A stretch of DNA of 64,000 nucleotides from Oribacterium parvum ACB1. GTDB taxonomy: Bacteria; Bacillota; Clostridia; Lachnospirales; Lachnospiraceae. The translations under genes were made by a program, and so were the position numbers. The stretch spans positions 937,201-1,001,200 of the forward strand of contig NZ_KE148312.1 in assembly GCF_000238055.2 (NCBI RefSeq), written 5' to 3'. This document shows, piece after piece, positions 1 through 61,262 of the stretch (positions are counted from its first letter, which is position 1; each line of letters starts with the position of its first letter). The notes below the pieces were generated by a model that was given only the letters and a program-made list of their open reading frames with translations, searched no databases and had not been told where the DNA came from.

Positions 1-1878
1 TATCTTTTTCAAAAACGCATCAATATCGAAATGCAAGGGTTTACCAATATGAATACGGCTGTTTTCCGTTTCTTCCAGCCCCTCTTCCGCCATAAGCTTT
101 TCCTCGTACAGTTTTTCTCCGGGGCGAAGTCCGGTGTATTGAATCTTGATATCCATATCCGGCTTAAAACCGGAAAGACGAATAAGATTCCGAGCTAAAG
201 TATCAATCTTTACCGGAGACCCCATATCCAGGACAAAGATTTCTCCTCCCTTTGCAAAACTTCCCGCTTCCAGTACAAGGCTTACCGCCTCCGGAATAGT
301 CATAAAGTAACGGATGATATCCGGATGGGTTACTGTAACAGGACCACCCTTTTCGATTTGCTTTTTAAAAATAGGGATTACAGAGCCATTGGATCCCAAA
401 ACATTTCCAAAGCGAACCGCAACAAACTCCGTATGAATATTGTGGAATACAGTTCCATCTCCGGCCTTATCCGCATTTTCCATTCCCTTATGGGTATAAA
501 GTTGTGGAATCTCTTCCGCCTTTCCTGCTTTTATTTTGGCATCAAAAGCTTGGATAATCATTTCGCAAAGACGTTTGCTTGCACCCATGATATTGGCGGG
601 ATTGACCGCCTTATCGGTGGAAATCAGCACAAAGCGCTGACAGCCGTGCGTCAGTGCGGCATATGCCGTTTTATAAGTCCCCAATGCATTATTCTTAATG
701 CTCTCACAAGGGCTTTCTTCCATCAAAGGAACATGCTTATGTGCGGCTGCATGATAAACAATATCCGGGCGATAATCCTCAAAAACCTGAAACATACGAC
801 GGGAATCTCTGACCGAACCGATTAATACCGTAAGACGCAGATTGGGATATTTCTCTTTCAGCTCCAACTGAATACTGTAAGCATTGTTTTCATAGATATC
901 AAAGATAATCAGTTCCTTCGGGTTATGCGCCGCTATCTGCCTGCAAAGCTCCGATCCGATGCTTCCGCCTCCACCGGTAACCAGTACGGTTTTCCCGTTG
1001 ATAAAACGAAAAACATCCTCCAAGTCAACACGAATAGGGTCTCTTCCCAATAGATCTTCTACAGAGACATTTCTCATCGCGGAAACTGTTACTTCTCCAA
1101 GAACCAACTGGTACATGCCGGGGAGGTTTTTCAGTTCACAACTGGTTTCATTACAGATATTCAAAATATCACGGCGCTGTTCTGCCGTGGCAGAAGGAAT
1201 TGCCAAAAAAATCTTATCGACAGCAAACTTTTCAACTGCTTCCAAGATACTTTCTCTTCCTCCTACAACAGGAATATTGTCAATCAGTCTTCCCCACTTG
1301 TTTTGGTTATCGTCGATAATACATACCACGTCGCCCCCCACTTCACCGGCACGATGAATGTCACGAACCAGCATCTGTCCTGCTGCCCCTGCCCCAATCA
1401 CCATAATACGCGACTGTATTCTCTTGGAATTGATTTTCCGAATCAGAAGAATAAAGCGATAGGAAAAGCGAATCCCCAGAACCGCAAAATACTGAAGCAA
1501 TGCTCCGATAAAATAATAGGAAACCGGCATTCTGCGAAAAAGTATGGTAATTCCTACTATGTGGAAGAGGGAGCTGACCATGGTTGCCAAACTGACTCGA
1601 AGCAGCTCCGAGTAACTGGCAAACCGCCATATACTCTTATATAATTTCAAATACCAAAAAACTGCCAAAGAAAAGAGGACGTAAATGGGGAGAAATCTCC
1701 TCCAAGCTTCTATATATGGAGGATCAATCATCGAGAACCGCAGATCAAAGCGTAACCACAAGGCAATAAGATAAGAAATCCCCAGTGCCAAGGCATCGTA
1801 AATCATAAGTCCGAAGGCCACAATATGCCAGTGTTCTAATCGAAATCCGTCCTTCTTTTTTTTCAATTCTTTTTCCAT
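1..1878 (-). CDS. CapD/WbpM-like nucleoside-diphosphate sugar epimerase/dehydratase (C-terminus cut by window edge)
   Basis: Membrane-anchored polysaccharide biosynthesis enzyme of the CapD/WbpM/FlaA1-long group, which usually makes 4,6-dehydrated UDP-HexNAc for capsule or glycan synthesis. The first ~120 residues hold about four hydrophobic helices. A nucleotide-binding-like stretch (GAGAAGQ) precedes the NAD-binding motif VTGGGGSIGSE near residue 300. The SDR catalytic region is STDKAVNPANIMGASKR near residue 416, with Met in the usual Tyr place, as in this subfamily. Conserved LRPGEKLYEE lies near the cut end. 626 codons are visible and the stop is outside the window. The start at 1878 follows GGAG. 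The exact sugar substrate cannot be read from sequence. Confidence 0.93.
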   Translation of the reverse strand, partial: MEKELKKKKDGFRLEHWHIVAFGLMIYDALALGISYLIALWLRFDLRFSMIDPPYIEAWRRFLPIYVLFSLAVFWYLKLYKSIWRFASYSELLRVSLATMVSSLFHIVGITILFRRMPVSYYFIGALLQYFAVLGIRFSYRFILLIRKINSKRIQSRIMVIGAGAAGQMLVRDIHRAGEVGGDVVCIIDDNQNKWGRLIDNIPVVGGRESILEAVEKFAVDKIFLAIPSATAEQRRDILNICNETSCELKNLPGMYQLVLGEVTVSAMRNVSVEDLLGRDPIRVDLEDVFRFINGKTVLVTGGGGSIGSELCRQIAAHNPKELIIFDIYENNAYSIQLELKEKYPNLRLTVLIGSVRDSRRMFQVFEDYRPDIVYHAAAHKHVPLMEESPCESIKNNALGTYKTAYAALTHGCQRFVLISTDKAVNPANIMGASKRLCEMIIQAFDAKIKAGKAEEIPQLYTHKGMENADKAGDGTVFHNIHTEFVAVRFGNVLGSNGSVIPIFKKQIEKGGPVTVTHPDIIRYFMTIPEAVSLVLEAGSFAKGGEIFVLDMGSPVKIDTLARNLIRLSGFKPDMDIKIQYTGLRPGEKLYEEKLMAEEGLEETENSRIHIGKPLHFDIDAFLKKI

Positions 1879-27450: not shown

Positions 27451-28404
27451 TTATTCTTTCTCTATGCTATCCTTCTTTGGAAGCATGACGGATACGGCAC
27501 GCTTCAGGATTTCCAGATGCATCTCTTTATAAGCTCCGCCAAACTCTCCGTCCAGCGTCCATCCAAGCTCTTCTTCCGCCTCTATACTAAGGTTCTTAGT
27601 CTTAAAGAACTGTACCTGTGGATTGTTTTCCGGAATATTTCCGCTCAGAGCGGTACTGATAATCTCCCCATAATCCGCAATATTTTTCGGTGCACGAATC
27701 AGTAAAACCTCAAATTCTCCATCCTGTAAATCCACAGCCAGTTTTTCTTCTAAAGAACTTCCGGGGAAACCGGTAAAGCCTCCAACGGAGCGGGAATTGA
27801 AAATAGCACCAAAAATGTATTCACCCGAAAAAGAAGAACCCCCCGATGTGATTTTCAAAGAATAGCTCTTACTCAAATTCTCCGGCATCGTACGAATCGA
27901 CTCCAGAATATAAGCCATATGCCCCAAGTTGTTTTTTAATTCCTGATTGGTTCCATAGCTTACCTTGGTAAACGCACCGAATGCCGCAATATAATTAAAA
28001 TACAAGTCATTCAACTTCCCAATATCATACTGAAAGGGCTCTCCCTTGACGATACCTCCTATATTTTCCTTAAGGTCCTTGGGAATTCCCAGAGAAGCCG
28101 CGAAGTCATTGGTTGATCCTGTCGGAATGTAGCCAATCGGAGTCTGTATCTTCTCCACCATCAGGCTGTTCACCAGATAGTGCAAGGTTCCGTCTCCTCC
28201 GACACAAACGATAAGATCAAATCTATCTCTATATTTATGCACAATGTTTTCTGTATTCAGTTTTTTGGATTTTGGAAGAATCGGAAAAACAGTCAACTCA
28301 CAATTTTTCTTGGCAAACTCCTCCACAATATTGTAAAGAAGAGTCTTTCCCTTTTCTTGCCCACTACTGCTGTTAATCAACAAAAGCACCTTTTTTTCCA
28401 TCAT
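27451..28404 (-). CDS. diacylglycerol/lipid kinase family protein (DagK/YegS-like)
   Basis: About 317 residues. Contains the NAD-kinase-like catalytic core CVGGDGTLHYLVNSLM (about 85-100) and GYIPTGSTNDFAASLG, the hallmark of soluble lipid kinases, plus a C-terminal beta domain. It probably phosphorylates diacylglycerol or a related lipid at the membrane. Two adjacent ATGs (28404 and 28401) follow GGAGGGAGGA; an upstream GTG at 28416 is also in frame. Alternative substrates such as sphingoid bases cannot be excluded. Confidence 0.9.
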   Translation of the reverse strand: MMEKKVLLLINSSSGQEKGKTLLYNIVEEFAKKNCELTVFPILPKSKKLNTENIVHKYRDRFDLIVCVGGDGTLHYLVNSLMVEKIQTPIGYIPTGSTNDFAASLGIPKDLKENIGGIVKGEPFQYDIGKLNDLYFNYIAAFGAFTKVSYGTNQELKNNLGHMAYILESIRTMPENLSKSYSLKITSGGSSFSGEYIFGAIFNSRSVGGFTGFPGSSLEEKLAVDLQDGEFEVLLIRAPKNIADYGEIISTALSGNIPENNPQVQFFKTKNLSIEAEEELGWTLDGEFGGAYKEMHLEILKRAVSVMLPKKDSIEKE

Positions 28405-28460
28405 TCCTCCCTCCACTCTCCATTTTCCCCTTGCTTATTTCGTCATTATATACTGAAAAA

Positions 28461-28663
28461 GGGGCTGTAAAAAATTAAAATAATAAAGAGATTCTTTGCA
28501 ATATAGGTCTGAATGCGGGGTAGTCTGAGCCCGTCGGTACTTGCGAAAAACAAGAGAAACGCAGTTTTTCGCTTAGTATCCGTTACGTGGCGAAGCTAGC
28601 GAGAGCGTGCCCCAAGTTCAGACCTATATTGCTTAGAAAATTATTTTAATTTTTTACAGCCCC
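28461..28663. repeat. structured intergenic repeat, copy 1 (203 bp, 24-bp perfect terminal inverted repeats)
   Basis: Begins GGGGCTGTAAAAAATTAAAA and ends with its exact inverted complement. Inside, GCAATATAGGTCTGAA pairs with TTCAGACCTATATTGC, and a further GCGAAAAAC / GTTTTTCGC hairpin lies in the centre. The element folds into one long branched hairpin and has no coding capacity. It sits directly after proS; on the minus strand it ends CAGCCCCTTTTTC, so it could act as its terminator. Copy 2 lies at 60929. Confidence 0.88.
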
Positions 28664-28677
28664 TCAAAAAAACTCTC

Positions 28678-30114
28678 TTAATAGGCTCTTCCCCAATAAA
28701 CCATCTTTGTCGCTTTCTTTCCGCAAACAACACAGCTATCGGAAATTTCTTCCTGCTCCATAGGAATACAACGGGAGGTAATGCCGGAATACTCCTTCAG
28801 CTTATCCTCACAATCTCTGCATCCGCACCACATAGCCCGTACAAAGCCCGGCTTCTTATCGAGGGACGCTACTAGCTCATCCAGGTTCTTCGCATCGGTG
28901 GTTCTTTCCTTCTGGAAAGCAAGCGCTCTGTCATACATATCTTTTTGCATCGCTTTTAAGAGTTTCTCTACCTCAACGGTCAGTCCGGAAAGCTCTGCTA
29001 CAATCTTTTCCCGATTGTCTCTTCTTACCAGTACAGCCTGATCCTTCTCAATATCCTTAGGCCCGATTTCCAGACGAAGCGGAATACCGCGCACCTCTCC
29101 ATCCGCAAACTTAAATCCCGGAGTCTTATCGGAATCATCCACCTTGACACGGATACCCGCCTTAAGGAGCTCATCCTTAAGAGCATAAGCTTTATCCAGT
29201 ACTCCTTCCTTGTTCTGCTGAATCGGCACGATAACAACCTGTACCGGAGCAATTCTTGGCGGAATGACAAGTCCGGAATCATCTCCATGAACCATGATCA
29301 GTGCACCGATGGTCCTTGTTGTAATTCCCCAAGAAGTCTGATGAACTGCTTCGATTTTATTTTCCTTACTTAAATACTGCACATCAAAGGCCTTTGCAAA
29401 GCCGTCTCCGAAGTTATGAGAGGTCGCACACTGTAAAGCCTGTCCGTCATGCATCAGTGCTTCTACCGTATAGGTCGCAATAGCACCGGCAAACTTCTCC
29501 TTGTCGGTCTTTCTGCCCTTTACTACCGGAATAGCAAGCTCATTTTCCAAAACATCCGCATAGATGTTCAACATAAGGAGGGTTCTCTCTTCCGCTTCTT
29601 CCGCTGTAGCATGAACGGTGTGTCCCTCCTGCCAAAGGAACTCTCTCGTTCTTAAGAAGGGTCTTGTTGTCTTCTCCCAGCGCACTACGGAGCACCACTG
29701 GTTTAAAAGTTGGGGTAAATCTCTATAGGACTTTACGACCTTGGAATAGTAATCACAGAAAAGTACTTCAGAGGTCGGACGAACACAGAGTCTCTCCTCC
29801 AGTCTCTTGGAACCGCCGTAGCTTACCCATGCAACCTCCGGAGCAAAGCCCTCCACGTGCTCGCTTTCCTTCTCTAAAAGAGACTGTGGAATAAGTAAGG
29901 GCATCGCGCAGTTCTGCACGCCGGTAGCCTTAAAACGGGTATCCAATTCGTACTGGATTCTCTCCCAGATGGCATAGCCTGCAGGGCGAATTACCATGAA
30001 GCCTTTTACGGAAGAATAATCTGTCAGCTCCGCCTTCTTCACTACATCCGTATACCACTGCGCAAAATCTTCCTCTCTGGAAGTAATCTGCTCCACCAAT
30101 TTCTTATCCGCCAT
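28678..30114 (-). CDS. proS: prolyl-tRNA synthetase (type 3, archaeal/eukaryotic-like)
   Basis: Charges tRNA-Pro. 478 residues, starting at the ATG at 30114 after a GGGGGG ribosome binding site. It lacks the bacterial editing insertion and instead matches the shorter type found in archaea, eukaryotes and some Clostridia. The class II core has [17 protein letters not shown] and [17 protein letters not shown]. The C-terminal extension carries a zinc-type Cys set (CGCRDC, then CVVCGKKA) and ends in the typical aromatic WGRAY. No T-box leader was recognised upstream. Confidence 0.97.
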
Positions 30115-30269
30115 AGTCCCCCCTCTATTAAAAAGCGATTTCGTCTTTTCTTTAAACACATTTTCCCTATATATTCCTTAGAATATATCCTGTTAAAAAA
30201 CTATCTATTGATTTTACCCCATGAAAATCAGAATCGCAAGGGTTGATTTGGCTCTTTCCATGCCTAAAA

Positions 30270-46060: not shown

Positions 46061-46120
46061 AAAAAAGAGCTGTAAAAATCAAAATTTCTTTACACTTTGA
46101 TTTTTTACAGTTCTTTTTTC
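46061..46120. terminator. bidirectional terminator after hcp, similar to the ends of the structured repeat
   Basis: AAAAAAGAGCTGTAAAAATC and GATTTTTTACAGTTCTTTTTT pair over about 23 bp with one bulge. The core GCTGTAAAAAATCAAA is shared with the termini of the 28461 and 60929 repeats, so this may be a minimal relic. It sits in the 384-bp gap 45967-46350, which otherwise is AT-rich and empty. Confidence 0.75.
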
Positions 46121-47822: not shown

Positions 47823-48083
47823 TTTTCCATCCTTTCTGTAATCGAAAAGGAATCCCTTTTTATATGATTAAATATTTTTAATCTTATGGATACTTAATCT
47901 TAAATCTTTTGAAAAAGGCAGTAAAGAGATTTTTGTAGGAACTTTCTTGTATATTTATTAATTTTTTTGAAATAATTGTCTTCTTGCACTACAACACAGG
48001 CTATTCAGTCCGAACAATTCCTTTCCGTTTTTCTATGGATACTTGTCCAAAAGCGAGATATCACACGATATCCATTATGAATA
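47823..48083. other. AT-rich intergenic region without a gene
   Basis: This is most of the 384-bp gap between the nitronate monooxygenase-like gene and flavodoxin. It contains GATTAAatatttTTAATC (a palindrome at about 47866-47883), two copies of TATGGATACTT and a short GATATC repeat. No promoter can be fixed with confidence. Confidence 0.5.
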
Positions 48084-48116
48084 AAAAAGAGGCTCTGCAT
48101 ACACAGAACCCCTCTT
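48084..48116 (-). terminator. terminator of flavodoxin
   Basis: On the minus strand AAGAGGGGTTCTG and CAGAGCCTCTT pair with a small internal loop, followed by TTTTTATTC. Confidence 0.75.
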
Positions 48117-60928: not shown

Positions 60929-61229
60929 GGGGCTGTAAAAAATCAAAATAATAAATAGATTCTTTGCAATATAGGTCTGAATGCGGGGTAGTCTGAGCCC
61001 GTCGGTACTTGCGAAAAACAAGAGAAACGCAGTTTTTCGCTTAGTATCCGCTACGTAAGGACAAACTTTTCATCAGAAAAGTTGTCCTGTACGAGACCAA
61101 CTTCCGAAGGAATTTGCTTTGCGAAGCAAAGTGAGCAGTGGTTAACAAAACCACTGCTCAGTCAGGCGAAGCTAGCGAGAGCGTGCCCCAAGTTCAGACC
61201 TATATTGCTTAGAAAATTATTTTGATTTC
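60929..61229. repeat. structured intergenic repeat, copy 2 (with a 108-bp insertion)
   Basis: The left ~128 bp differ from copy 1 (28461) at only three positions. At 61057-61164 it carries 108 bp absent from copy 1, made of three hairpins (61058-61088, 61113-61130, 61132-61160). The right part then matches copy 1 again up to ATTATTTTGATTT, where the terminal repeat breaks off. It occupies nearly the whole 352-bp gap after the MATE gene. Confidence 0.88.
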
Positions 61230-61262
61230 TTCATCACGAGTATTGCTCGTAAAGAGAGTAGA

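Follow-up and report, generated by a model that had tools for sequence, protein, structure and literature searches.

A large family of structured dispersed elements in Lachnospiraceae, seen from a copy directly behind proS in Oribacterium

A folded repeat behind proS

What is a 203-bp sequence that folds back on itself from end to end doing directly behind the gene for prolyl-tRNA synthetase? This sequence lies at 28461-28663 (plus strand, the strand being set by its conserved core) of the window, that is, the whole stretch of 64,000 nucleotides analysed here, which is a part of the 2.47-Mb genome of an oral Oribacterium, O. parvum ACB1, of the family Lachnospiraceae. The original prediction saw in it a structured repeat with one further copy, kept either as a folded RNA or as a MITE, and able to end transcription of the gene before it. 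The answer that we favour, with a probability of roughly 0.62, is that it belongs to a large Lachnospiraceae family of structured dispersed elements that are non-autonomous, with selection acting on the folded plus strand and with an outer stem that would act as a terminator.

The predicted pairing is found in full. The terminal inverted repeats are perfect over 24 bp (28461-28484 with 28640-28663, AAAAA standing just before the left arm), and so is the inner inverted repeat over 16 bp (28498-28513 with 28617-28632), whose arms vary fast among copies and are almost always paired. When the whole element is folded as RNA, its energy is -98.9 kcal/mol versus -44.9 ± 3.9 for shuffled sequences (z = -13.9), and none of 200 shuffles folds as well as the native sequence. 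Inside the arms lies a conserved core (28517-28613), whose parts are a helix P1 (GGGG/CCCC), a junction, a long hairpin with covariation and a tetraloop hairpin. It is this core, and not the terminal repeats on which the emphasis had been placed before, that is the most conserved part of the element. One side of an internal loop, UCUGAGCC (28524-28531), is near-invariant and stands opposite GGCGAAG at 28589-28595, and the small hairpin GC-GAGA-GC with its GNRA tetraloop is at 28599-28606. With their tandem G.A, the two sides of the internal loop may form a k-turn-like structure; UGAG opposite GGCGA is kept in Oribacterium, and the adjacent pairs C42-R117 and U41-G118 blur any k-turn bulge.

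The further copy is also real. It is of a 303-bp form, truncated at its right end, at 60929-61231 on the plus strand, and the paired change of T to C in the left arm and A to G in the right arm (ATTAAAAT/ATTTTAAT to ATCAAAAT/ATTTTGAT) keeps the pairing, as had been noticed. It exceeds the copy behind proS by an extra domain of 108 bp with several hairpins (61057-61164, plus strand), which is inserted within the core. About nine copies of the own genome are of this longer form, and such a domain was found at this one fixed core site in about 15 copies. Among copies of the domain (that of the window and those at loci L026-L033 and L042-L045), the stem letters of one hairpin are wholly swapped, GTGGTT/AACCAC in some and TGGGCT/AGCCCA in others. 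The window has in addition a hairpin of outer-arm sequence alone, devoid of a core, at 46067-46113, with an A-tract before it and a T-tract after it.

How does the element stand to proS? The gene, identified by Pfam (28678-30159, minus strand), reads into the element, which starts 14 bp past the proS stop, and a diacylglycerol-kinase-like gene follows downstream (27451-28416, minus strand). The plus strand of the core, the conserved one, is thus antisense to both genes. On the proS strand the element reads ACAGCCCC followed by TTTTTC, and TTTTTCAG, at 28449-28460 of the minus strand, lies just 3′ of it, which gives proS transcripts a hairpin and a T-tract. This is the anatomy of an intrinsic terminator, a stable G+C-rich hairpin foot and then a U-tract. 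A scan for terminators with short loops lists nothing at this copy because the hairpin is 203 nt long. In 12 of 13 congeners, judged by eye, a short plain terminator hairpin with a T-tract comes right after proS; O. sinus, judged in the same way, has no clear hairpin and T-tract there. Anatomy and congeners together bear out, at the level of sequence, the proposal that the element could end proS transcription, and in this genome it apparently serves as that gene's stop signal. It is to be noted that proS is followed by cca in O. sinus (L215) and in three other congeners (L218, L220 and L223), with no diacylglycerol-kinase-like gene between them, and that in the genome of the window this gene and the element both stand between proS and cca.

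One fold in about 100 genera

The copies are far more than two, and 92 pieces matched when the own genome was searched. Sixteen of these are near-full 203-bp units, which are almost identical at unrelated sites, about nine are of the longer form of about 300-310 bp, and the remaining copies have only the core of about 97 nt in common. At least 44 copies in this genome have both core halves, and the O. sinus loci examined yielded 74 of this kind. In O. sinus, a 15-base core word has 162 matches with up to two mismatches versus 2 for the reversed word, and about 160 relatives of the element are carried there.

How far does the family extend? A covariance model built from 45 Oribacterium copies was run against Lachnospiraceae with a threshold of E up to 0.01, and 118 of 397 genomes, about a third of those sampled, gave matches, in 104 of 334 genera. 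Copies across about 100 genera have the fold in common though their letters differ greatly. In a phylum-wide sample, five of 398 genomes matched, four being Lachnospiraceae and one lying outside (G814); in a class-wide sample searched with a second model, all 11 matching genomes of 391 were Lachnospiraceae, one genus (g231) being represented by four species with the element. The exception, G814, lies outside the class and has seven copies in its one genome (L204, L209), which suggests transfer across classes. Phages and plasmids were considered as vehicles and set aside for want of matches, as sequence searches found no copy in phages, plasmids or viral contigs.

Might such an element come from a known class of RNA or ribozyme and have drifted beyond what existing models detect? 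Its compact junction with a tetraloop and near-invariant internal loops does resemble tertiary-structured RNAs. However, with gathering as well as looser cut-offs, no Rfam 15 family was found over the Oribacterium loci (E up to 5), nor over the element when 20 loci from other genera were searched (E up to 1), and we regard such a membership as extremely improbable. At L149, a TwoAYGGAY RNA (RF01731, E 3.5e-13; 1248-1409, minus strand) and a copy of the element are separated by about 90 bp.

To what extent is the fold kept by selection? Two alignments were examined. The first, of 45 diverse copies that are nearly all from Oribacterium, was made by MAFFT without structure; 95.3% of its cells pair, 28 of 48 pairs are changed on both sides, and none of 500 shuffles matches this. 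The second has 61 copies across genera, fitted to the covariance model, which favours the structure; 94.2% of its cells pair, versus 63.3% after shuffling and at most 44% with slid partners, and changes of both partners are seen in 44 of 48 pairs, which goes far beyond the single pair that had been noticed originally. A mutual-information scan blind to the structure placed 38 known pairs in its top 60 and added one new pair, which lengthens the inner helix. In the outer stem, all four Watson-Crick pairs are used at almost every position.

Which strand is the folded one? Two signs bear on this. Next to P1, the small hairpin has a tetraloop that is of the GNRA type in all 47 sequences from outside Oribacterium, in six versions (GAGA 20, GGGA 9, GAAA 9, GCAA 5, GCGA 3 and GGAA 1). 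In the same set, G-U outnumbers A-C by 90 to 29 (p = 2e-8) and, when four junction pairs are left out, by 42 to 20 (p = 0.007), both p values being optimistic since related sequences are not independent. The arms of Oribacterium copies show G-U over A-C as well (106 versus 63), and the outer arms of other genera show no such bias (41 versus 38). Thus, family-wide covariation and the strand-specific GNRA and G-U signs strongly support the view that the folded plus strand is under selection, and the earlier reading of a selected folded strand is firmly borne out.

Could the palindromes have been perfected without any selection on the fold, by template switching (quasipalindrome correction), with recombination keeping the cores alike? 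Some near-identical cores with unrelated self-complementary arms would agree with this, and recombination between copies is suggested by the locus L028 described below. Against it, covariation is also found in the core hairpins, around conserved loops that are not complementary; the GNRA loops, present in 47 of 47 cases, and the excess of G-U are signs of one strand only, which correction of DNA does not produce; and the fold has been kept over all those genera. We hold this explanation to be very improbable.

A further question is whether the selected strand is RNA or DNA. A GC-GNRA-GC hairpin is also very stable as a DNA mini-hairpin, so the strand bias fits single-stranded DNA as well as RNA. 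In such a case the folded DNA strand would matter in the way of IS200/IS605 ends or attC sites, with an enzyme moving the plus strand into hairpins at replication. Insertion beside or inside hairpins, also in the apical region of other copies of the element, speaks for this together with the lack of target duplication, but the presence of Y1 transposase does not track the element and no recombinase gene is linked to it, as is described in the next section. We consider it quite unlikely that single-stranded DNA is the form that matters, and RNA probably is.

Gene ends, filled sites and empty sites

Where do the copies lie? With open reading frames called mechanically, and among copies for which both neighbours were called, 97 copies (all but one from Oribacterium) fall between 48 convergent, 43 tandem and 6 divergent gene pairs, and 39 copies of other genera between 13 convergent, 23 tandem and 3 divergent ones. 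The copies favour gene 3′ ends. Between tandem genes, the plus strand of the element runs antisense in 25 cases and sense in 18, which is near-equal, and so there is no obvious role for it as an RNA acting in cis. A conserved promoter was not identified for the copies. Outer arms of Oribacterium copies, of the form RRRRCTGT, have A-rich sequence before and T-rich sequence after them; measured from fixed arm ends, the A-tract level is 0.60 versus 0.30 and the T-tract level 0.56 versus 0.29 in sequence 32-40 nt farther out, which is about twofold. In Oribacterium, the outer stem with these flanks probably acts as an intrinsic terminator in both directions. Termination as the general function of the family is excluded, as some copies lie within operons and have no T-tract.

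These placements bear on the possibility that the element is a host RNA, a 3′-UTR or small-RNA module spread by ordinary duplication and not selfish, which would serve the host in 3′-end formation, mRNA stability or protein binding. The preference for 3′ ends and the strong purifying selection on the core agree with this. So do copies that occupy orthologous sites in O. sinus and in the species of the window, the genes of the two being about 75% identical (L006/L101, L077/L109, and 60929 of the window/L125), from which it also follows that some copies are old. What makes us regard a host RNA as rather unlikely is that 70% of the genomes of the family have no detectable copies, that copy numbers span from one to about 160, that there is no orientation bias relative to tandem genes, and that copies are nested in one another.

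Traces of mobility are seen in filled and empty sites. In genome G321 an element occupies a spacer of 167 nt between fmt and a zinc-peptidase gene, and the same spacer is 16-41 nt in eight congeners. The six copies of G321 have similar cores and arms that are unrelated yet self-complementary. A pre-existing long hairpin was considered as the source of such locus-specific arms and rejected; since the congener spacers are only 16-41 nt, the arms at fmt came with the insertion or arose after it. Sites that are filled in O. sinus and empty in the genome of the window often have a plain terminator hairpin instead; the O. sinus loci were picked for holding an element, so that no rate of gain or loss is derivable from them. 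At one such site, the plain hairpin at 48083-48116 of the window has a stem, AAAAAAGAGG/CCTCTTG, which recurs as the outermost one in the element that O. sinus has there.

In both O. sinus and the genome of the window, nested copies are found in which left halves come first, then one full core, and then right halves (the order being judged by eye), and this looks as if one copy entered the apical hairpin of another. Nested arrays at L113 1000-3300, L125 2430-2850, L041, L102 and L127 form very long composite hairpins. Certain copies have near-identical cores and unrelated arms. Across all copy pairs, arm similarity declines gradually with core similarity, and therefore most of the arm change is ordinary compensated divergence. 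Locus L028 (G000:C1:377831-378942) has a left flank of 400 bp identical to that of L027 and a right flank of 400 bp identical to that of L029, a chimera that suggests that copies recombine, unless the assembly is at fault. Some elements are abutted by another palindromic repeat, of about 48 bp (TTTGCGAGCGATACGCATTAAGAATAAAA), at L028 350-397 and at about ten other places in the own genome.

What moves the element, then? It is short, non-coding, present in many copies and bounded by terminal inverted repeats, like a MITE, and near-identical copies at unrelated sites and the filled and empty sites uphold that part of the original prediction. The flanks of 25 copies, inspected by eye, are A-rich on the left and T-rich on the right and show no direct repeat, hence no sign of a target duplication. 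A parent transposase with the same ends was looked for in the own genome, and no pair of GGGGCTGTAAAAAAT ends at the spacing of an insertion sequence was found. Since two defining traits of a MITE were thus not seen, our classification goes no further than structured dispersed element. In 78 neighbouring open reading frames, the most frequent Pfam families include no transposase or other recurrent partner, the neighbours being unrelated housekeeping genes, and a linked protein partner was dropped. The Y1 transposase (PF01797, IS200/RAYT) was likewise dropped as universal mobiliser, for it does not co-occur with the element, being present in 57 of the 118 genomes that carry the element and in 156 of the other 279 (odds ratio 0.74, p = 0.19).

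A scheme along the following lines would accommodate these observations. The unit would be the core of about 97 nt, with P1, the junction, the covarying long hairpin and the GNRA hairpin, closed by a long stem whose sequence may vary freely as long as pairing holds. Selection would act on the plus strand when it is single-stranded and folded, RNA being the most likely form, and the molecular role of the core might lie in being recognised in its folded state for mobilisation in trans. Units would come to lie at the 3′ ends of genes, frequently within an intrinsic terminator or instead of one and sometimes within one another, and the copy behind proS would have taken over the terminator role for that gene. 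It is even conceivable, though we think it unlikely, that the family stands for a new class of mobile element in which the folded RNA or single strand itself moves, its core being recognised by its fold through a trans-acting enzyme, with insertion into hairpins including its own and the closing stem rewritten from copy to copy. If that were true, its spread in Lachnospiraceae would reflect a mobilisation system not yet described.

Comparison with known systems

Here, then, is a strongly supported family of structured nucleic acid that Rfam 15 does not contain, and its hosts belong to a bacterial family that is among the main ones in the human mouth and gut. It provides a model ready for Rfam and a test bed for how dispersed elements turn into host terminators. 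What recognises a near-constant core when the stem around it changes completely? In the open-access literature searched, no description of the family was found.

Short dispersed intergenic elements with inverted repeats are well known in other bacteria. BOX and ERIC are among them and are known with internal insertions, which resemble the extra domain of 108 bp in their arrangement. RUP is a further short element of this kind (PMC2229807), but it has a likely parent insertion sequence (IS630-Spn1) and TA targets, and no parent was found for our element. REP sequences with RAYT (PMC3733652) are also palindromic intergenic repeats; the present element is far larger, has a complex core and has no association with Y1. 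The L17 downstream element (Weinberg 2010, PMC2864571) is likewise a structured RNA 3′ of genes, for which GNRA loops and G-U pairing served to tell the direction, but it is tied to one ribosomal protein gene and not dispersed. Fremin and Bhatt (2021) collected 250 palindromic candidate RNAs from human microbiomes, most of which overlap predicted terminators (PMC8040213). The main text of that study has no description that matches our family, which could nevertheless be listed among such candidates.

Two further parallels are bcr1 and YPAL. The repeat bcr1 of the Bacillus cereus group is a chromosomal non-coding repeat of about 150 bp with traits of a mobile element (PMC2267715, PMC6542083) and, like our element, with a conserved secondary structure (PMC2267715). 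It is described as confined to one species group, in contrast to about 100 genera here, and the stems of our family differ almost completely among distant copies. YPAL, or RU-2, of Yersinia is a mobile element of 168 bp that has inverted repeats in its interior, goes into targets that include or border on dyad symmetries, and has sites found both filled and empty (PMC2229807), all of which is shared with our element; it makes target duplications of 3-26 bp, of which none was seen here, and it differs in host group and range (PMC2229807). By analogy, the element behind proS would work in the manner of bcr1 or YPAL, membership in either being not claimed.
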